64,000 nucleotides of DNA from Anaerolineaceae bacterium (GTDB taxonomy: Bacteria > Chloroflexota > Anaerolineae > Anaerolineales > Anaerolineaceae): NCBI GenBank assembly GCA_016841365.1, contig JAENZI010000009.1, forward strand, positions 62,001 to 126,000, given 5' to 3'. This document shows, piece by piece, positions 24,274 through 44,874 of the stretch. The position numbers were made by a program, and so were the translations under genes. The notes under the pieces were generated by a model. The model had not been told where the DNA came from. It worked only from the letters and a program-made list of their open reading frames with translations, and ran no database searches. Numbering within the stretch: position 1 is the stretch's first letter; each line of letters opens with the position of its first letter.

Positions 24274-24825
24274 ATGAAACAAATGTCAAAACCTAAAGTT
24301 GCATCGGATTGGTTATGTGGATGCGCAGGATGCCACATGTCCCTCCTCGACATTGATGAACGTATTTTACAGGTTGTTGAACTGGTTGATCTGCGTGCAA
24401 CCCCTATCACAGACCTTAAAGAGCCGGATGAAGACGGCGTGACGGTGGGCATTCTCGAAGGCGGCATCAATAATACCTACAACGAAGAAGTTGCCAAGCG
24501 GATGCGTGAACGCTGCAAAATATTGGTCGCCCTCGGTGATTGTGCTGTATTTGGCGGTGTCCCTGCCATGCGAAACTTCGTCGGTTGCGAGGCAGCACTC
24601 CAACGAGCCTATGTGGACGCTGAAAGCAACGACTCAGAAGGCAAAATCCCATCATCACCTGAATTGGCGCAAATGACACACGTGCGTGCAGTTCACGAAG
24701 TTGTACCCGTTGATCTGCATATCCCGGGTTGCCCGCCTGATGCAGATGTCATCTTTTATGCCCTCACAGAGCTGGCTCAAGGCCGAATCCCGGACATCAA
24801 AGATGAGAAATTGCATTGGCATTAG
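24274..24825 (+). CDS. hoxY: [NiFe] hydrogenase small subunit (HoxY-like)
   Basis: A 183-residue small subunit with no signal peptide, therefore cytoplasmic. The four ligands of the proximal [4Fe-4S] cluster are visible in WLCGCAGCHMSLLDID, GDCAVFGGVPAMRN and HIPGCPPDAD. Medial and distal cluster domains are absent, as in group 3 bidirectional enzymes. It transfers electrons between the [NiFe] active site in the large subunit and the NuoG-like protein. ATG at 24274 or 24283 are both possible. The gene lies 37 bases behind the NuoG-like gene and 12 bases before the large subunit. Confidence 0.94.
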   Translation: MKQMSKPKVASDWLCGCAGCHMSLLDIDERILQVVELVDLRATPITDLKEPDEDGVTVGILEGGINNTYNEEVAKRMRERCKILVALGDCAVFGGVPAMRNFVGCEAALQRAYVDAESNDSEGKIPSSPELAQMTHVRAVHEVVPVDLHIPGCPPDADVIFYALTELAQGRIPDIKDEKLHWH

Positions 24826-34830: not shown

Positions 34831-35151
34831 TTATTCCTCAACCCCGATCTCAACCATGCCATTATTGACTCTAACAGGATAGGAACGAACGTCCTGCACT
34901 GCTGGCAGGGTTAAGACTTCGCCATTACGGATGTCAAAACGTGCGCCATGGCGCGGGCAAATGATCTGATGATCCTCCACATCGCCATCACCCAGTGGGC
35001 CGTCATCATGGGTGCAGACATCTGCAATCGCATAATACGATCCATCAACATTCAAAATCACCACCGGGTCGTCATCCAATTCGATGAATAAGCGCTCACC
35101 AGGCGGCAAATCTTCTATGGCACAAATCGGATAAAAAGTCACTTCTTTCAT
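34831..35151 (-). CDS. Rieske-type [2Fe-2S] ferredoxin
   Basis: A 106-residue soluble Rieske protein. Ligand motifs are C-x-H in VCTHDDGPLG and C-x2-H in CPRHGARFD, and the domain fills the protein. Such small proteins act as electron carriers for oxygenases or reductases. It lies downstream of the suf genes on the same strand, behind a terminator-bounded small gene, so it may be a Suf client rather than a Suf component. The partner enzyme is unknown. Confidence 0.88.
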   Translation of the reverse strand: MKEVTFYPICAIEDLPPGERLFIELDDDPVVILNVDGSYYAIADVCTHDDGPLGDGDVEDHQIICPRHGARFDIRNGEVLTLPAVQDVRSYPVRVNNGMVEIGVEE

Positions 35152-35164
35152 CGATCCTTTTTCA

Positions 35165-35194
35165 CAAAAAAGATGGGCACATTGTGCCCATCTT
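35165..35194 (-). terminator. Rho-independent terminator
   Basis: An eleven-base-pair stem AAGATGGGCAC/GTGCCCATCTT with a three-base loop, followed on the minus strand by a run of T. It lies between the 97-residue unknown gene and the Rieske gene, separating their transcripts. Confidence 0.88.
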
Positions 35195-35211
35195 GATCGT
35201 CATCTCAAGAA

Positions 35212-35505
35212 TTATTTCATCTGATAGCCGGTTGGGCGTTCAGAATCTCTTTTCGCAGGCCTGATCATGCTCGAATCGTACTGAAACCACAAGATATGAT
35301 CCGGCACCATCCAACCATCGGTTAAATAAACATTGGTGCGGAACTGAACCGCAATCATCTTTCCATCTACTTGAACAACAATCCCCCTGACCCAATCTCG
35401 AATTCGGTCGCCATTCTTCTCATGGTCGCAATAAACCTCGACTGGATCACCGACCTGGTATGAGCTATCTTCTACTGGTGGCCGCATAAATGGTGATCTC
35501 GCCAT
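35212..35505 (-). CDS. Small protein of unknown function (SH3/Tudor-like beta fold suspected)
   Basis: A 97-residue soluble protein I do not recognise. It has a short leader (MARSPFMRPP) and then a beta-rich core. VGDPVEVYCDHEKNGDRIRDWVRGIVVQVDGKMIAVQFRTNVYLTDGWMVPDHILWFQ looks like an SH3 or Tudor-type barrel with KOW-like spacing; I infer this from hydrophobic alternation only. It has a good ribosome site (CAGGAGGATT) and its own terminator downstream, so expression is credible. It lies between sufD and the Rieske gene. Confidence 0.6.
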   Translation of the reverse strand: MARSPFMRPPVEDSSYQVGDPVEVYCDHEKNGDRIRDWVRGIVVQVDGKMIAVQFRTNVYLTDGWMVPDHILWFQYDSSMIRPAKRDSERPTGYQMK

Positions 35506-35620: not shown

Positions 35621-36970
35621 CTATCGCTCGGACATCTTTTCCCGAATCGCTTCTGCAAAGCGTGTCTGAACACCTTCAAAAGGAATGCGTGCCATGATGG
35701 GCGCAAAGAAACCGGATACGATCAATTCTTCAGCATCTGTTTTGGGAATGCCGCGGCTAAGCAAATAAAACATCTCATCTTCGTCAATTTTCCCGACTGT
35801 TGCGCCGTGTGTACAACGAACATCATCCGCCAATATCTCAAGCCCGGGGATGGAATCAGCACGAGCACCCTTACTCAGCACCAGGTTGCGGTTCGCCTGA
35901 TAACCATCCGTGCCAATCGCGCCAGGAGCCACATAGATCATCCCCTGCCACACGGAACGACTTTCGTCCATCAAAGCACCTTTGTAAAGCAAGTCGCTGG
36001 TGGTGTCCTTCGCCATGTGGTTCTGTTGCGTGTCATGGTCAAGATGCTGGTCGCCAGAAGTAAAATAGAAACCCGACATCCTCGCCATCGCACCGGGTTC
36101 CATCAGGTCAATATCCGAGAAGTTCTTTGTCAGATGGGTACCCATCGCACCGAAAATCCATTCGAGCGTCCCATCCCCCATTACCCTGGCGCGTTCCCGG
36201 GTAAATGACCACACATTCTTTCCCCAGGATTGCAGTTCGACAAAATTCAACCGAGCATTTCTGCCAACATAGATCTCAACAATTCCGTCATGAAAGATTT
36301 GATTGCCCTCATCTTCATTCGGAGAAGCAGACTCATGCACAAACGTCACCTGCGCACCATCTTCCACATAAATCACAAGGTGGTTGATGTAAGCCATGTT
36401 CTCCCCACCCCCCCAATATAAGCTGTGCAAAGGCTGTTCAATGATGACATTTTTAGGAACATACAATAAAACACCCTCAGTCCCTAAAGCTGCTGCTAAT
36501 GCACTGAATTTATCTTCGTCTGGCAAAACAATATCGCCCAATATTCCAGCTAACAGGTCTGGTTGTTCCATCTCAGCAGTATGGAAGTCAGTAAAGATCA
36601 CACCCTGCTCCGCTAATGAAGGGTCAAGCGATTGGGCAGGTTTCACTGCACCAGAAACGATCTGCCCCATGCGGTACTCATCTGTGACGATTGGGTTCAA
36701 AAATCGCTCAGGTGGAGAATCCAGTTGATTGTCACTGTCCAACGAAAAGGTTTCGGTCTTCAACCCACGAATATCTGTTCTGCGCCATGCCTCATCCTTT
36801 AGTGTGGGAAAAGGCAACGATTGATACGCCTCCCAGGCAGAGCGATGGTATTCTCTCAAGGCAGTGTGTTTGACTTCCGGTAGTTGGTCAATCGAAAATG
36901 AAAAGTCAGCCAATGACTCTCTTCTTCGGCTGGGAGTTTTCCGCGTGATTATTTTAGGAGCATTTGGCAT
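35621..36970 (-). CDS. sufD: Fe-S cluster assembly protein SufD
   Basis: A 449-residue SufB/SufD-family protein. The conserved C-terminal beta-helix carries GATVGKIDEDEMFYLLSRGIPKTDAEELIVSGFF, which includes the histidine preceding the GATVG segment (CTHGATVG). It forms the SufBC2D scaffold with SufB and SufC that assembles Fe-S clusters. The N-terminal helical region is divergent, as is usual. It lies 26 bases after sufB in the sufC-B-D operon. sufS and sufE/sufU are not in this window. Confidence 0.93.
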   Translation of the reverse strand: MPNAPKIITRKTPSRRRESLADFSFSIDQLPEVKHTALREYHRSAWEAYQSLPFPTLKDEAWRRTDIRGLKTETFSLDSDNQLDSPPERFLNPIVTDEYRMGQIVSGAVKPAQSLDPSLAEQGVIFTDFHTAEMEQPDLLAGILGDIVLPDEDKFSALAAALGTEGVLLYVPKNVIIEQPLHSLYWGGGENMAYINHLVIYVEDGAQVTFVHESASPNEDEGNQIFHDGIVEIYVGRNARLNFVELQSWGKNVWSFTRERARVMGDGTLEWIFGAMGTHLTKNFSDIDLMEPGAMARMSGFYFTSGDQHLDHDTQQNHMAKDTTSDLLYKGALMDESRSVWQGMIYVAPGAIGTDGYQANRNLVLSKGARADSIPGLEILADDVRCTHGATVGKIDEDEMFYLLSRGIPKTDAEELIVSGFFAPIMARIPFEGVQTRFAEAIREKMSER

Positions 36971-36995: not shown

Positions 36996-38408
36996 CTATC
37001 CTACTGATCCAATCATCTGCAATTGAATCAATCGGTTCATTTCTACTGCGTATTCCATGGGTAATTCTTTGACCAGCGGCTCAATAAAGCCGGAAACAAC
37101 CATCGTGGTTGCTTCTTCTTCGCTCAGACCACGGCTCATCAGGTAAAACAATTGCTGCTCACCCACCTTCGACACCGTCGCTTCGTGGCCTAATGACACA
37201 TCCTGGGCATCTACCTCGATATAAGGGTAGGTATCCGATCGTGATTCAGGATCCAGCAACAGGGCATCACACACAACATTTGATTTTGATCCCTCAGCGT
37301 TTGCATGGACCTTCAATAACCCACGGTAGGATGAACGTCCGTTGCCGCGGCTGATGGATTTGGATGTGATCTTACTGCTGGTGTTCGGCGCAAAATGAAT
37401 CACCTTACCGCCGGCATCCTGATGCTGACCAGGACCTGCAAAGGCAACCGATAGGATCTCACCGTGAGCACCCTCTTCCATCAGGTAGCATGAGGGATAC
37501 TTCATGGTCGTTTTTGAACCTAGGTTCGAATCGACCCATTCCATCGTTCCATTTTCATAAACCTTGGCACGTTGGGTGACAAGATTGTAGACATTGTTCG
37601 ACCAGTTTTGAATGGTAGTGTACCTTACGCGTGCATTCTTCTTTACCACAATTTCAATCACGCCGCTGTGGAAGGAATTTGTGGAGTATGTTGGGGCAGT
37701 ACAGCCTTCAACATAGTGCACCTGTGCGCCCTCATCTGCGATGATCAACGACCGCTCGAACTGCCCAATGTTGGCAGAATTCAATCTAAAATAAGCCTGC
37801 AGCGGCAAATCCACCTTGGTATTGGGCGGGATGTACACAAACGATCCACCAGACCAGACAGCGCTGTTCAAGGCTGCAAATTTATTATCCTGTATTGGGA
37901 TGACGGTTGAAAAATATTGCCGAAAGATATCTGGATGCTGCCGCAACCCCTCTTCGATCGAGAGAAAGATGACACCTTGCTCTTTTAATTCTTCTTGCAC
38001 ATTGTGATAGATCATTTCTGATTCATATTGTGCGCCGACTCCAGCGAGGTATTTTTGTTCCGCTTCTGGAATGCCTAATTTATCAAATGTGTTTTTGATC
38101 GTTTCAGGGATTTCGTCCCAGGTGCGGCCTTCTTGATCGGTGGGCTTGACATAGAAAAAGATCTCATCCAGATTGAGGTCACTCAGGTCAGCGCCCCAGG
38201 TAGGAATTGGACGCTCCTGAAAGTGTTTCAATGCCTTTAATCTGAATTCCAGCATCCAGGCAGGTTCTCGTTTCATTGCCGATATCTGGCGAACAACATC
38301 TTCGTCAAGACCTTTACGGCTTTTAAACACAGATGTGTCCGGATCACTAAATCCGAACTGATATTCCCCAAAATCGTCTAATGATTCTGTCTTTGGGTTT
38401 TTACCCAT
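36996..38408 (-). CDS. sufB: Fe-S cluster assembly scaffold SufB
   Basis: A 470-residue core scaffold on which clusters are built. It has the family start [55 protein letters not shown] with the conserved Cys, and a C-terminal [29 protein letters not shown]. Length and motifs are canonical. It lies between sufC and sufD on the minus strand. Confidence 0.96.
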
Positions 38409-38431: not shown

Positions 38432-39208
38432 TTACGCTTCCAATGGCTGACCGTATTTCTCACGCACCCAGTCATATCCCTCATTTTCGAGTAGCAATGC
38501 CAGATCATGCCCACCCGATTCCACAATACGGCCGTCATACATCACGTGCACAAAATCAGGCTGAATGTAGTTCAATATCCGCTGATAATGGGTGATAACC
38601 ATCACGCCCATATTTGGGCCTTTTAGTGTATTCACACCTTCTGAAACAATTCGGATGGCATCGATATCAAGGCCTGAATCGGTTTCATCAAGGATGGCAA
38701 AGGCTGGCTCCAGCACAGCAAGCTGCAAAACCTCTGTGCGTTTCTTTTCACCACCTGAAAATCCCTCGTTCAGGTAACGCCCACCAAACGAGTATTCCAT
38801 TTCCAGCATGTCCATCTTCGACTTGAGCAATTTTCTGAAATCCAAAACTGAAATATCCTCTTGCGGTGGGTCTGCATGGCGCCGGCGGGAATTGAGCGCT
38901 GTCCGTAAGAAATTTGCGACAGTCACACCTGGTATGGATACAGGATACTGAAATGCCAGGAAAATCCCTGCCCGAGAGCGTTCATCCGCAGCCATTTCCA
39001 GCACACTTTCACCGTCAATCAAAATGTCACCTTCGGTGACTTCATAATTGGGATGCCCCATAATGGTATTTGCCAGTGTCGATTTACCTGTCCCATTCGG
39101 ACCCATGATCGCATGTACTTCTCCTTGATGCACTTTAAGGTCAAGTCCTCTGAGGATGGGATTATCCTCGATCGAGACATGTAAGTTTTTTATGGTTAAT
39201 TCTGGCAT
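38432..39208 (-). CDS. sufC: Fe-S cluster assembly ATPase SufC
   Basis: A 258-residue ABC-type ATPase of the Suf system. Walker A is [12 protein letters not shown], the signature is [14 protein letters not shown], Walker B is [16 protein letters not shown], and the H-loop is [13 protein letters not shown]. It energises the SufBC2D scaffold in the cytoplasm. It is the first gene of the sufCBD operon, preceded by AAGGAGTATGG and by a promoter carrying the repeat shared with sufR. Confidence 0.97.
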
Positions 39209-39227
39209 CCATACTCCTTATACAATT

Positions 39228-39245
39228 TGGATATTTTTATCCAAT
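39228..39245. promoter_or_regulatory. Inverted repeat in the sufC 5' untranslated region
   Basis: TTGGATA-tttt-TATCCAA, a perfect seven-base inverted repeat lying between the predicted sufC transcription start and the ribosome site. A related TTGGATAA...TATCC repeat lies in the 5' region of the sufR gene (40768-40784). Either an operator or an RNA hairpin close to the ribosome site. Confidence 0.55.
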
Positions 39246-39282
39246 ATTATCTTAATTATCTAATTTTATTTGAGCAACCGAA

Positions 39283-39327
39283 TTATAGCATGCACAAATT
39301 TCATAGTCAATATTTAGCATAAATATC
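39283..39327 (-). promoter_or_regulatory. sufC promoter with SufR-type operator overlapping -35
   Basis: On the minus strand TTGACT (39311-39306) and TATAAT (39288-39283) are 17 bases apart, a near-perfect promoter. ATATTTA-N3-TAAATAT (39311-39327) is a perfect seven-base inverted repeat that abuts the -35. The same repeat occupies the same position in the sufR promoter. Confidence 0.75.
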
Positions 39328-39448
39328 TAATAAATTAATAACATTCCCCTGCGCATCAACTATCAAGAGCACTATACACTATCAAATCATTTGATTCATA
39401 TGGTAAACTTAAAGCGCATTCAAATATTTCTATTAGAAAGGATAACTA

Positions 39449-39994
39449 ATGGCAGACAAGAAAAGCAAGAAAAGCATTTTTGGCAAGGCAATCGATGCAA
39501 TTTCAAACCGGGACGAAAAAGAGGACATCCAGAGTTTAGAGGATGAACTCGCTGAAGCCAAGAAAGAAGCAGCAGCAGCCAAAGAAGCCATCAAGTCCAT
39601 GCTGGATCAAAATGCCGACGTTAAGAAAGATAAGTACGCAACCGAAAAAGCCGTTGAAGAAAAAGAAAAACGGATCGCTGAGCTTGAAAGAAAACTTCGA
39701 GAAAAGACCCAAGCTGAACGAAAGGATTTGATCGAAGAACGACGCAAAGCCCGCGAAGAAGCAATGGATAAACTGGAAAAACTCAAAAAACCTAAGATCA
39801 TCACCACCCATGTTGTTGACGAAGAAAATCCAACCCTGAGCCATATCGCACTCAAATATTACAAGCATGCCACCCCGCCCTACTGGAAATATCTGGTGGA
39901 GCATAACAAAGAATTGCTGGATGGAAGCGAAAAGAATCTGCGCTTAGGCATGGAAATCGTCATCCCTGAACTGCCTGAGGAACTTAAAGACTAA
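39449..39994 (+). CDS. Coiled-coil protein with LysM-like C-terminus
   Basis: A 181-residue protein with no signal peptide, so probably cytoplasmic. Residues about 25-110 are highly charged and form a predicted coiled coil rich in Glu, Lys and Ala. The C-terminal 55 residues (NPTLSHIALKYYKHATPPYWKYLVEHNKELL...LRLGMEIVIPELPEEL) resemble a LysM domain of the cytosolic YgaU/Kbp kind. The gene is followed by the next ORF after one base, implying co-translation. Function unknown. It lies between sufC and sufR but starts about 120 bases from the sufC promoter on the other strand. Confidence 0.6.
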   Translation: MADKKSKKSIFGKAIDAISNRDEKEDIQSLEDELAEAKKEAAAAKEAIKSMLDQNADVKKDKYATEKAVEEKEKRIAELERKLREKTQAERKDLIEERRKAREEAMDKLEKLKKPKIITTHVVDEENPTLSHIALKYYKHATPPYWKYLVEHNKELLDGSEKNLRLGMEIVIPELPEELKD

Positions 39995-39995
39995 C

Positions 39996-40628
39996 ATGGC
40001 AAATGAATTAAATCTAAGCAACATCTTCGGATCTGTAACGCAACAACTGGCACAGAAACAAGAAACGCTGAACGAGGCTGACGACTATAATCACAATCAT
40101 GGTGATCACATGGTACAGATATTCAACCTCATTCAGGGTGCTGTATCACAAAAACAAGATCAGCCCGTGGCAGAGCAGTTAGGTTATGCAAGCAAAGTCG
40201 TTAAAGAGCAAGCGAACAGCGGCTCGGCGGCACTCTACGCCCAAAACTTGTCGAATGCAGCACAGAAGTTTTCTGGTTCCGAATTAAAACCAGATATGCT
40301 TGGAACGCTGGTACAAAGCTTATTAGGCGTTGAAAAACCTCAACCAGCACCGCAGCCAAAACAGACAGGCGGTTTCTTAGGGTCACTGCTTTCAAGCCTG
40401 ACCGGAAAGAAACAAACCAGCCAGCAGGACCAGGGTTTGGATCTTAATGACCTATTGCAAGTTGGAATGGCGTTTTATCAATCCAAACAAGAAGGTGATA
40501 ACAACACCCAGGCGATCATGGACGCACTGATGGCAGCCAGCCCAATGGGGCAATCCGCCCATCGCGCGCAATCCGGTTCAGTCGTTGCTTCAACCATCCT
40601 GGATTTTGCCAAATCACTCAATCAGTAA
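39996..40628 (+). CDS. Hypothetical protein with Gln-rich linker
   Basis: A 210-residue protein I do not recognise. The N-terminal half is helical and polar (NLSNIFGSVTQQLAQKQETLNEADDYNHNHGDHMVQIFNLI), with an HNHGDHM stretch that could bind metal or recall Dak-type domains. A Pro/Gln linker (QPAPQPKQTGG) leads to a second helical half (LDLNDLLQVGMAFYQSKQEGDNNTQAIMDALMAASPMGQSAHRA). No signal peptide and no cysteine. It is coupled to the upstream LysM-like gene and is followed by a terminator. The pair probably functions together. Confidence 0.55.
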   Translation: MANELNLSNIFGSVTQQLAQKQETLNEADDYNHNHGDHMVQIFNLIQGAVSQKQDQPVAEQLGYASKVVKEQANSGSAALYAQNLSNAAQKFSGSELKPDMLGTLVQSLLGVEKPQPAPQPKQTGGFLGSLLSSLTGKKQTSQQDQGLDLNDLLQVGMAFYQSKQEGDNNTQAIMDALMAASPMGQSAHRAQSGSVVASTILDFAKSLNQ

Positions 40629-40647
40629 AATAAAAACATTCAAGTCA

Positions 40648-40673
40648 AAGATGCCCAAATTTGGGCATCTTTT
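40648..40673 (+). terminator. Rho-independent terminator
   Basis: AAAGATGCCCAAA/TTTGGGCATCTTT forms a continuous palindrome with a following T-rich tract, just after the 39996 gene. It isolates this pair from sufR. Confidence 0.85.
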
Positions 40674-40709
40674 TGTTTAACTGACAGAGTCACACCTCGA
40701 ATTTTTAGG

Positions 40710-40755
40710 ATATTTATCTTAAATATTGACAAACCAAATCCCAGCGTGCTAAAAT
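40710..40755 (+). promoter_or_regulatory. sufR promoter with the shared operator
   Basis: TTGACA (40726-40731) and TAAAAT (40750-40755) are 18 bases apart. ATATTTA-N3-TAAATAT (40710-40726) abuts the -35, exactly as in the sufC promoter. Over 22 bases ending in TTGAC the two promoters differ at only two positions. This predicts autoregulation. Confidence 0.75.
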
Positions 40756-40767
40756 CACTTGCACAAA

Positions 40768-40784
40768 TTGGATAATTCCTATCC
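40768..40784. promoter_or_regulatory. TTGGATAA...TATCC repeat upstream of sufR
   Basis: GGATA-N5-TATCC, preceded by TT, lies between the predicted -10 and the sufR start. It resembles the TTGGATA-N4-TATCCAA repeat in the sufC leader, with one extra spacer base. A possible second operator common to both genes. Confidence 0.45.
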
Positions 40785-40801
40785 TGTTATGAGGACATTT
40801 T

Positions 40802-41425
40802 ATGAAAAGCACGCGGGAAAAGATATTACACACCTTGCTGGTTCATCCCAGATCAACCATCAATGAATTGGCAGAAGCTGTTGGGATTAACGGCATTTCG
40901 ATTCGCCATCACCTTTCATCCTTAGAAGCAGATAACTTGATCACCTCTACTGAAGAACGGCATGGGGTCGGACGCCCTCGGTTAATCTATTCACTCACAG
41001 ATAAAGGGGTTGAAGAGTTTCCCACCAGTTACCTGCACTTCACCAGGTTGCTGCTTTCGTCACTCAAAGAACGCATGACCGAAGAAGAGTTTAGCCATGT
41101 TTTCGCCCAAATCGGTTCGGAACTCGCTGCTGATCTGCTGCCCAGGTCAAAAAATATCCCTCTGGACGAGCAAATCAAACAACTCGATAAAATGCTGAAG
41201 GAACAAGGTTACATCGTGGAATGGCACGAAAACCAGGATGTTTACAGGCTGGAAATTCTCTCCTGCCCATATAATAAATTGTCTGCAGAATTTCCAGAAA
41301 TGTGTGCCATGGATGCGAGCATTGTTTCAGAATTCCTAACCACACCTATTGAGGTTGAATCCAGCATCCATTCAGAAGCCAAAAAATGTGCTTATATTAT
41401 CCCTAAGAAACAAAAGAAGGCATAA
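40802..41425 (+). CDS. sufR: SufR-like Fe-S-sensing transcriptional regulator
   Basis: A 207-residue winged-helix regulator. The N-terminal HTH (ILHTLLVHPRSTINELAEAVGINGISIRHHLSSLEADNLI) is followed by the wing GVGRPRLIYSLT. The C-terminal region holds C-x12-C-x27-C (SCPYNKL...EMCAMD...KKCAYI), close to the C-x12-C-x13-C-x14-C of cyanobacterial SufR with the middle-right cysteine missing. SufR binds an Fe-S cluster and represses suf genes. The neighbouring sufT, the nearby sufCBD operon and the shared operator repeats support the role. Cluster binding here is inferred. Confidence 0.85.
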   Translation: MKSTREKILHTLLVHPRSTINELAEAVGINGISIRHHLSSLEADNLITSTEERHGVGRPRLIYSLTDKGVEEFPTSYLHFTRLLLSSLKERMTEEEFSHVFAQIGSELAADLLPRSKNIPLDEQIKQLDKMLKEQGYIVEWHENQDVYRLEILSCPYNKLSAEFPEMCAMDASIVSEFLTTPIEVESSIHSEAKKCAYIIPKKQKKA

Positions 41426-41770
41426 ATGAAAGAAGATTTTGAGAATATCCCTGTATGGGATGTCGAAAATACCCACGCTGACCTCGTCCCTGCATTGGAA
41501 GATGGCTTGAGTGAGATCATTGACCCTGAATTAGGCTTAAATATCATTCAATTGGGGCTGGTTCGGAATATTGAAATTAAAGAAGATCATGCGGTTATCA
41601 CCATGATCCTGACCACCCCCTTCTGCCCCTACGGACCTTCGATGTTAGAACAAACTCGCAAAAAAGCTGAGAAAATCCTTGATATGCCGACCAAAATTAA
41701 TTATGGGCGTGAAACCTGGGATCCAACCATGATGGAAGAAGGCTTAGCAGACGATTGGGGTCTCTACTAA
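41426..41770 (+). CDS. sufT: SufT-like MIP18/DUF59 protein
   Basis: A 114-residue DUF59-family protein with DPELGLNIIQLGLVRNIEI and the conserved cysteine in TTPFCPYGPSM. SufT proteins aid Fe-S cluster maturation under high demand. Its ATG follows the sufR stop with no gap, so the two are co-translated. The C-terminus GRETWDPTMMEEGLADDWGLY is typical of MIP18-like proteins in suf loci. Confidence 0.85.
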   Translation: MKEDFENIPVWDVENTHADLVPALEDGLSEIIDPELGLNIIQLGLVRNIEIKEDHAVITMILTTPFCPYGPSMLEQTRKKAEKILDMPTKINYGRETWDPTMMEEGLADDWGLY

Positions 41771-42736: not shown

Positions 42737-44650
42737 TTAGAAAATAATTTCAGCAAACCCGCGTGCAACCAAACCAGCCAGGGCAGCAATCAGCGTGGTT
42801 AATGCCACAATCTGGTACATTGCTTTCCGCCCCAGCTCCTTTTTGATTGCCACCATTGTTGCCAAACATGGAATGTAAAAAACCACAAAAACAGCGTATG
42901 TAATCATCTGGACAGGTGTCAGCACAGTCGAAAAATCCATGCTGCCCAGTGCCTGACCCAACATGACCAGGGAAAGTTCTTTTCGTAAAACGCCAAAGAT
43001 GAGAGGTACCCCAACCTCATACGGCAAACCCAAAATCCATGACAAAGGACGCAGCAAGCCATTGAGGTATACAGCCACATTGATGTAATTAAGGATAGCC
43101 AAAACAACAGAGCCCACAATCAGCAGCGGCCATGCTTCAACAATAAATTCTCGCACACGCCACCAGGCTTTATTCAAAACGGTGCGTACCGTCGGAACAC
43201 GATAGACTGGCATCTCAAGGATCAACCCTGGAGAGGTATCCGGCACCAGCCGTGAAAGGATACGCGCAGTTAGTGCAATCACAAACAAATCGAACAAGTA
43301 GATCCCTAAAGCCAAAACCGGCCCAAGATAAAAAGCCACCAAGCCAAACACAACCGCTAAACGTGCTGCGCACGGCACTAATGTAGATAGGGCGGCAGAA
43401 ATAAACCGCTCACGCTTATCTTCCAAAATCCTGGTAGACATGATCGCAGGTACGTTACAGCCAAACCCAAGGATGAAGGGCACAATCGATTTCCCATGCA
43501 ATCCGATCTTATGCATCAGTGCGTCCATCAAAAACGCCACTCTCGGCAGGTAACCAATATCCTCCAACAATCCTAATCCAATCAAGAATGGCACAAGATA
43601 AGGCAACACAATCGCAACACCGCCCGAAACACCCTGGATCAATCCCACTAAAATCTGTGTAAAAAATCCATCCCCATCGCCAACAAGAGAGATGACCCAT
43701 GTTTCAACCTGGGCAAACAAGTCCATCAGCGGCGCTTCAATCAATCCACCGAGGATATACACGGCCTGAAAGAATAAATAAAGGATCGCAATCAAGAAGA
43801 CGTAGCCCAGCCATGGGTGCAGAAGGATATCGTCCAGCCGGTCTCGAAATGTGATGTTCCGTTTCCCCTGCTTGATCACCTGGCTTGCGATTTGGTCAGC
43901 CAAATTATTCCGCTCACCAATGATGATCCAGTCAATCGACCGCCCGCGCTGATGCTGAAGCCCGTTTTTAATCGTCTTTAAGTCGTCAGCAAGCTTGGGT
44001 TTCTGAGATGTGGCATCCGCAATAATCGCCTCATCTCCCTCCAGCAACTTAATCGCCAAAGCACGCGTGTTTAAGTGGCTTTCAACATCCCCCAGGTTCT
44101 TTGCTAATACTTCCAGTGCTTGCTCAACATCATTGCTGTATCTCGGTCGGGTCGCCAGCCGGTTTTCATGCCCAATGCTGTAGGCTTTTGTAAACAAGGG
44201 TTGGATGCCTCTGCCCTTTGATGCGATCATCGGAATAACTGCTAAACCAAAAATCTCTTCTAAAGCTCTGACGTCGATTCTGATCCCAAGCCGATCTGCC
44301 TCGTCCATCATGTTCAAAGCGATCACCATCGGGATTTCGAGCTCAAGCAACTCAATCGTCATCGCTAATCCATGTGCCAGATTCGATGCATCCAGCACAT
44401 TCACAACCACATCCACCTCATTCGAAGTGAGGTATTTGATAACTTCGCGTTCTGCCGGGTTGCTACCGGCTAATGTGTAGGTCCCGGGGAGATCGACGAC
44501 ATCAACCACATCCCCGAGCACCCTGACTTGACTTTCAGTGAATGTAACGGTTGTCCCAGAAAAATTGCCGGTTTCTGCTTTATATCCGGCAATCTGATTA
44601 AAAAGTGTACTTTTCCCACAATTGGGTTGTCCAATTAAACCAATTCGCAT
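42737..44650 (-). CDS. feoB: Ferrous iron transporter FeoB
   Basis: A 637-residue inner-membrane Fe2+ importer. The N-terminal G-domain has GQPNCGKSTLFNQIAG, TGNFSGTTV and VDLPGTYTLAGSNPAE, with an NMMDEAD base motif. A helical spacer and the membrane domain follow, with GFGCNVPAIMSTRILEDKRERF and the GVLRKELSLVML Gate segment. Length is normal to slightly short because the C-terminal cysteine tail is missing. It overlaps feoA by one base. Confidence 0.96.
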   Translation of the reverse strand: MRIGLIGQPNCGKSTLFNQIAGYKAETGNFSGTTVTFTESQVRVLGDVVDVVDLPGTYTLAGSNPAEREVIKYLTSNEVDVVVNVLDASNLAHGLAMTIELLELEIPMVIALNMMDEADRLGIRIDVRALEEIFGLAVIPMIASKGRGIQPLFTKAYSIGHENRLATRPRYSNDVEQALEVLAKNLGDVESHLNTRALAIKLLEGDEAIIADATSQKPKLADDLKTIKNGLQHQRGRSIDWIIIGERNNLADQIASQVIKQGKRNITFRDRLDDILLHPWLGYVFLIAILYLFFQAVYILGGLIEAPLMDLFAQVETWVISLVGDGDGFFTQILVGLIQGVSGGVAIVLPYLVPFLIGLGLLEDIGYLPRVAFLMDALMHKIGLHGKSIVPFILGFGCNVPAIMSTRILEDKRERFISAALSTLVPCAARLAVVFGLVAFYLGPVLALGIYLFDLFVIALTARILSRLVPDTSPGLILEMPVYRVPTVRTVLNKAWWRVREFIVEAWPLLIVGSVVLAILNYINVAVYLNGLLRPLSWILGLPYEVGVPLIFGVLRKELSLVMLGQALGSMDFSTVLTPVQMITYAVFVVFYIPCLATMVAIKKELGRKAMYQIVALTTLIAALAGLVARGFAEIIF

Positions 44651-44874
44651 TAAAGATCTCCGACCTTGACATGCGCAGCGATCCCTCGCCCGATGGCAAT
44701 CGAGCGGCCTTCAACTTCAACCATAATCGGACCCTCCAATGGGGCGTGCCGCAATACTTTCACTTTTTTACCGGGTGCAAGACCCAGCTGGCGCAGTTTT
44801 AGCCCCACGCCTTTTCCCCCCAAATAGTCAATAATTTTAACTTCCACACCTTTAGGTGCATCTAATAATTTCAT
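44650..44874 (-). CDS. feoA: Ferrous iron transport protein FeoA
   Basis: A 74-residue SH3-fold partner of FeoB, with EVKIIDYLGGKGVGLKLRQLGLAPGKKVKVLRHAPLEGPIMVEVEGRSIAIGRGIAAHVKV-type core. Its stop overlaps the feoB start (TAATG). It is the first gene of the minus-strand operon. The upstream region (44875-45062) is AT-rich and holds no clear Fur box that I can defend. Confidence 0.95.
   Translation of the reverse strand: MKLLDAPKGVEVKIIDYLGGKGVGLKLRQLGLAPGKKVKVLRHAPLEGPIMVEVEGRSIAIGRGIAAHVKVGDL

Follow-up and report, generated by a model that had tools for sequence, protein, structure and literature searches.

A predicted 28-bp operator for a SufR-like regulator at the sufCBD and sufR promoters of Anaerolineales

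Introduction

Characterised SufR proteins act as repressors, as set out in the cited portions of PMC8593673 and PMC6034842. In cyanobacteria their site is given as CAAC-N6-GTTG, and SufR of Synechocystis (sll0088) is encoded divergently from sufBCDS and is described as having a winged helix, a cysteine-rich C-terminal Fe-S site and autoregulation (PMC8593673, PMC13421787, PMC4755962). CAAC-N6-GTTG is also the site described for SufR of Streptomyces avermitilis, where it lies over the -10 (PMC11995493, cited portion). For the actinobacterial SufR of M. tuberculosis, Rv1460, the ligands are listed as C203, C216 and C244, and sufR leads the suf operon (PMC6034842, cited portion). RisR of Myxococcus xanthus and IscR, which belong to the Rrf2 family, are Fe-S regulators too and cover promoter elements to repress suf or isc; the sites of RisR diverge from those of IscR (PMC9973013, cited portion).

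No report of a SufR operator in Chloroflexi/Chloroflexota, or of a suf operon in Anaerolineae, was found in the literature searched, which lies mostly outside the subscription journals. RegPrecise 3.0 holds a Chloroflexi collection of five genomes, according to the part of its description cited (PMC3840689), and may already list a Chloroflexi SufR regulon.

The locus described here resembles the cyanobacterial one in having a winged-helix regulator divergent from the suf operon and, as predicted from sequence, a cysteine-rich C-terminal Fe-S site and autoregulation; it differs in its operator, which is a 28-bp three-block AT-rich dyad in place of CAAC-N6-GTTG. The x12 and x27 ligand spacing is that of Rv1460, whereas the gene order is not, and the -10 placement seen in S. 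avermitilis is not shared either. Repression through cover of a promoter element, as by RisR and IscR, is predicted here for a protein of another family, as no Rrf2 model was among the matches of the regulator.

Results

The DNA analysed (the window) is a stretch of 64,000 nucleotides from an Anaerolineaceae genome (GCA_016841365.1, contig JAENZI010000009.1). The genes of its suf locus are:

35621-36970, minus strand: sufD (TIGR01981, 267.2 bits; cut-off 222)
36996-38408, minus strand: sufB (TIGR01980, 715.2 bits; cut-off 346.4)
38432-39208, minus strand: sufC (TIGR01978, 358.8 bits; cut-off 212.8)
39449-39994, plus strand: insA, one of two genes parting sufC from sufR
39996-40628, plus strand: insB, the second of these two genes
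40802-41425, plus strand: sufR-like regulator, 207 aa, winged helix and C155-x12-C168-x27-C196 (TIGR02702, 82.7 bits; HTH_24 over cut-off)
41426-41770, plus strand: sufT-like gene (FeS_assembly_P), directly 3' of sufR (PF01883, 48.6 bits; cut-off 23.5)

No Pfam or NCBIfam match was obtained for insA or insB at E 0.001. The end of insA is LysM-like by eye, and relatives of insA and insB are located near suf genes in the window's own genus and in g15. Past sufD, and in the same direction (34831-35505, minus strand), come a 97-aa frame and a gene like that of a Rieske ferredoxin, which are perhaps part of the operon; G061, a genome of the window's genus, likewise has such a 97-aa frame after its suf genes. 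Also near the locus is feoB (42737-44873, minus strand), preceded by a small feoA-like frame recognised by eye; the window scan detected no operator in the feoB region.

The palindrome ATATTTA-N3-TAAATAT is present in the window at 39310-39326 on the sufC side and at 40710-40726 on the sufR side. The initial annotation had given the second position exactly and the first as 39311-39327, which is one base off. Its description of the surroundings was accurate: the palindrome abuts the -35 box in both promoters, each of which is near consensus, and the 22-mers that end in TTGAC, when recounted, differ between the sufC and sufR promoters at two positions. The elements between the two genes are as follows, the operators being given in the 34-bp frame derived below:

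39282-39310, minus strand: sufC promoter, TTGACT-17-TATAAT (promoter scan; 11/12, TG before the -10)
39306-39339, minus strand: sufC operator, 28-bp core 39309-39336 (model match G000:C17:101306-101338, E 8.0e-6)
40647-40672, plus strand: terminator-like hairpin between insB and sufR, computed in the promoter/terminator scan
40697-40730, plus strand: sufR operator, 28-bp core 40700-40727 (model match G000:C17:102700-102730, E 7.4e-7)
40726-40755, plus strand: sufR promoter, TTGACA-18-TAAAAT (promoter scan; 11/12, TG before the -10)

In L005 the sufC and sufR operators correspond to positions 5-38 and 1396-1429. The sufC and sufR promoters were the two promoter-like sites detected in 39200-40810; shuffled sequence had 3.3 on average, and their number is therefore not above chance; the argument for them is one of position and quality.

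When up to two mismatches were allowed, the window held three matches to the palindrome against 0.19 expected. It had been noted beforehand that a repeat common in AT-rich intergenic DNA would speak against an operator; this was not borne out, as the exact palindrome occurs only twice in the genome (2,855,454 bases in 19 contigs), both times at this locus. With one mismatch there were two further genome sites (C3 and C14) and the backwards control pattern likewise gave two, so that only the exact form of the 17-mer is specific in this genome.

Other repeats were observed in the leaders of the two genes. The sufC leader contains the direct repeats GATAAT-TAA-GATAAT 3' of the promoter (39246-39260, minus strand), which is the single match in the window (0.37 expected with one mismatch). 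GATAA repeats of a similar kind are found in other sufC leaders of the genus, including that of G061 with its decayed SufR operator, and are perhaps a second, SufR-independent element. By eye, inverted repeats can also be seen in the sufC leader (TTGGATA-N4-TATCCAA, 39209-39240) and in the sufR leader (GGATA-N5-TATCC, 40767-40785).

The 17-mer had been proposed as the operator unit and is present as described, but comparison of the sites and their symmetry show a 28-bp dyad of which it is only a part, and it was ruled out as the whole operator. The real unit is a three-block dyad, AATATTTA-NN-ATAWWWATC-WWWW-ATATT, which ends inside TTGAC. In the 34-bp consensus, GTCAATATTTAnnATAwwwATCwwwwATATTGAC, the outer GTC and GAC are parts of two facing -35 boxes. 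Across the 55 divergent loci the operator carries on average 1.32 bits per position, compared with 0.45 on either flank, and C is found at operator position 22 in 67 of 75 sites. Symmetry peaks at operator positions 13.0 (0.71, 8 pairs), 22.0 (0.60, 8 pairs) and 17.5 (0.66, all 17 pairs); by this measure the operator is two 17-bp palindromes with a common middle block, within one 28-bp dyad. The two palindromes first reported from the window cover different parts of the dyad: the one at sufC spans operator positions 5-21, the one at sufR positions 14-30. Of the 28 core positions, 21 are identical between the two operator copies of the window. Stand-alone copies keep the three blocks, and the opposite GTC or GAC tends to go.

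A SufR ortholog (E < 1e-30) was present in 86 of 101 genomes of the family, and sufR upstream regions were fetched for 85 of these. Using a first matrix, seeded on the site of one relative and refined over the 85 upstream regions, the operator was detected at sufR in 75. The ten without a matrix match were L033, L036, L065 (G005) and seven g15 genomes; in L033 and L036 the site is visible with one base missing. The motif had been said to be unlike the cyanobacterial site and this holds true, as CAAC-N6-GTTG was found in 0/85 family sufR upstream regions. Its two matches in the window are far off, at 24480 and 46520 (1.2 expected), and a cyanobacterial-type site was therefore ruled out here.

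In 55 of the 85 family genomes sufC and sufR are transcribed divergently within 500 bp of each other, with one operator between the facing -35 boxes. The two genes are placed in this way at 8 of the 18 loci from order and class level as well, including both class-level ones; because of this distribution, a single common operator is probably the ancestral arrangement. Four loci (L027, L038, L053 and L064) have two operators within one intergenic region, and at other loci sufC and sufR are apart and each gene keeps its own copy. This is the case in the window's genus, where insA and insB part the two genes and each promoter has an operator copy. Both insA and insB are beside sufC in nine of the ten own-genus genomes in which sufC was located. 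G105 is the tenth: here 463 bp separate sufR from sufC, and the sites score 36.0 (sufR) and 15.6 (sufC). Conservation of the operator at the sufC and sufR promoters reaches past the genus to the order Anaerolineales, and a copy is retained in L123, a locus of 65% G+C.

For a held-out test a matrix was made from the 55 family common operators outside the window's genus. The threshold of 3.9 was the 99.9th percentile of the scores from 4,740 dinucleotide-shuffled sequences (largest shuffle 13.2). All of the other upstream regions (57/57) scored above this percentile, with the qualification that the training sites had been placed by the earlier matrix, which had seen the window's genus, and that the test regions were picked for known genes and not at random. 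Within the genus, 8/8 sufR regions (7.3-35.5) and 8/8 sufC regions (25.6-33.8) passed; the lowest, L009 (7.3), lies within the extreme tail of the shuffles, given their largest value. At the level of the order, where the genes are separated, the counts were 10/10 for sufR (14.8-43.4) and 10/10 for sufC (13.5-41.6), and 6/6 where they are adjacent (37.5-49.2). Separated sufC regions of the family gave 13/13 (18.2-39.7), one of which belongs to G073, a genome without a detected SufR, and class-level regions 2/2 (16.4 and 22.4).

No SufR ortholog was found in 15 of the 101 family genomes, and the sufC upstream region is readable in eight of these. The operator is absent in seven of the eight, the SufR losses representing few independent events (one clade and one genome). 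All six readable genomes of genus g17 are without it (scores -42.0 to -13.4). The seventh, G061, has sufT, insA and insB in place, and all that is left between sufT and insB is a short frame in which, by eye, a few residues resemble the tail of SufR. The -35 and -10 of its sufC promoter are kept, while the stretches homologous to the operators score -2.6 at sufC, where a decayed remnant is left, and -40.3 on the sufR side. G073, an assembly of 440 contigs, is the exception, as SufR was not found and yet the sufC site scores 18.2.

There are also genomes in which the protein is present and the usual site is missing from at least one of the two promoters. The seven g15 genomes keep a SufR-like protein and have no operator at sufR, with sufC site scores of 31.9, 21.0, 10.7, 2.0, 24.0, -8.7 and 5.2. 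G013 has a site at sufR (22.2) and none at sufC. In G005 SufR is present and the usual site absent; AT-rich dyad-like stretches are seen near the sufR and sufC starts (L065, L169), after a -10-like hexamer, and are perhaps a moved operator.

The initial annotation had suggested scanning this genome and its relatives for the motif near Fe-S genes, and in such scans it was found at sufC and sufR, almost only at suf loci. A sequence-only model from 68 hand-chosen sites was searched against the 101 family genomes. In the window's genome only the sufC and sufR operators matched at E <= 0.5, and across the family all listed matches below E 1e-3, read by eye, were at sufC or sufR coordinates. A wider regulon was considered and set aside, the best non-suf matches in the 101 genomes being single cases only: G095:C16 (E 0.0019) is inside a 974-aa frame, and G018:C4 (E 0.0038) is between convergent frames. 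The third, G056:C125 (L174, 2775-2799), is a partial match (E 0.0029) lying immediately 5' of a frame, hypA-like by eye, in a hydrogenase cluster.

An exact-pattern scan of a collection of 84,980 species genomes returned at least 120 matching stretches. Among the matches listed, 117 of 120 are upstream of sufR or sufC (81 of both, 34 of sufR and 2 of sufC). Neither gene was seen downstream in three of the 120 listed: L184 (Bacillus), L192 (Brachyspira) and L200 (Anaerolineales), the last of which has its site at the very edge of the stretch and may still precede one of them. By title, and in some cases by the placement of the genus, 118 of the 120 matches listed were judged by eye to belong to Chloroflexota.

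The regulator matches TIGR02702, the SufR_cyano equivalog, over its full length at 82.7 bits; unlike cyanobacterial SufR it is below the curated cut-off of 178.8 bits, and it is therefore named SufR-like and not placed in the equivalog. It has the traits of SufR in a wider sense, namely an N-terminal winged helix-turn-helix (Pfam HTH_24 over cut-off), cysteines spaced x12 and x27 in the C-terminal part (C155, C168 and C196) and linkage to suf, sufR being 1.6 kb from sufC. The C-x12-C-x27-C pattern is present in 109 of 111 proteins; of the exceptions, L082 runs off its contig and L052 has no third Cys in frame. Residue 188 is Ser in the window protein and Cys in 6/7 own-genus, 60/71 other family and 16/16 order-level proteins; from this distribution it is a fourth conserved cysteine, lost in the window protein.

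In the structure prediction (mean pLDDT 88.4, pTM 0.62) a winged helix leads into a mixed C-terminal domain. When this predicted fold was used in Foldseek the matches were mostly winged-helix, with PadR-operator complexes top-ranked at low TM-score, and a sequence search of solved structures gave one weak ArsR-family match. In 104 of the 109 SufR proteins adjoining pattern-matched operators the putative recognition helix has the sequence ISVRHH; Chloroflexia-like relatives carry TTAVRDHL.

Outside Anaerolineae, eight phylum-level loci score -47.1 to -2.5 for the Anaerolineales operator. The phylum-level SufR-like matches were mostly without a suf gene in the DNA read around them, and inspection by eye revealed no motif common to them. 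Where the gene is linked to suf, 6 of 12 loci outside Anaerolineae have a dyad of similar length, in other letters, that adjoins TTGAC and ranks with the two best inverted repeats of its stretch. Unrelated repeats there score as high, and the dyad of about the same length next to the -35 of some Chloroflexia promoters is therefore suggestive only.

Discussion

It is likely, on the sequence comparisons, that a SufR-like Fe-S repressor controls sufCBD and sufR through a lineage-specific operator. The proposal of such an operator with autoregulation gains from the conservation at sufC and sufR, the near-restriction to suf loci and the loss in seven of eight genomes without SufR; what has changed is its extent, from a 17-mer of one genus to a 28-bp dyad found order-wide. 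That SufR is the binder, that the cluster controls binding and that the outcome is repression are points we infer. A SufR-like dimer with an Fe-S cluster on C155, C168 and C196 would bind the 28-bp dyad, which adjoins the -35 of sufCBD and of sufR-sufT and extends a little into it. Judged by their near-consensus sequences, both promoters would be strong when no regulator is bound, and for this reason the bound protein would most likely bar RNA polymerase. When clusters are scarce or damaged the protein would lose its cluster and release the DNA, and sufCBD and sufR would be transcribed until recovery, which would amount to end-product feedback with autoregulation. The dyad centres at 13 and 22 (the two overlapping 17-mers) and at 17.5 (the whole) may stand for a pair of dimers that overlap and perhaps exclude each other, or for a single extended complex.

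Other explanations can be weighed against this. The SufR-like protein could bind and yet activate sufCBD, sufR or both from just upstream of the -35, a placement which would also suit an activator, as the core is mostly upstream of that box; we consider this unlikely, as the near-consensus promoters by their look need no activator and the characterised SufR proteins repress (PMC8593673, PMC6034842, cited portions). That the site is bound by a different regulator, such as one of the Rrf2 or Fur type, with SufR acting elsewhere, is distinctly unlikely. The sufC site of G073, without a detected SufR, would fit such a regulator, as would g15 and G005, which have SufR without the usual sufR site; however, sufR has the site at its own promoter, and seven of the eight readable SufR-less genomes are without it.

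Being AT-rich and directly upstream of the -35 boxes, the stretch could also be an UP element contacted by the alpha subunit of polymerase and not an operator. The fixed length and dyad, the C at position 22 in 67/75, the symmetry peaks and the copy kept at the 65% G+C locus make this very unlikely, and further evidence against it is that G061 has kept its sufC promoter and not the operator and that the site is almost confined to suf loci. A chance AT-rich repeat, for which the equal count of the backwards control at one mismatch in the genome might be cited, is contradicted by the held-out test, the genome scan and the model search, and its probability is close to nil.

Within the favoured reading, that of a SufR-like repressor, a more specific model is put forward tentatively, as somewhat short of an even chance: the Anaerolineales protein would read the 28-bp three-block operator as two 17-bp palindromes with a common middle block, one site between the facing -35 boxes would set both sufCBD and sufR, and genes that have been parted would have their own copies. 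If this is true, the specificity switch would be traceable residue by residue across the phylum.

The locus offers a feedback circuit that can be put to the test in a widespread order of Chloroflexota, covering, by title and suf linkage, named isolates of Anaerolinea, Longilinea, Bellilinea, Levilinea, Ornatilinea, Pelolinea and Thermanaerothrix. It would provide a second operator code for SufR-type proteins, together with genomes that are without both the regulator and the site.
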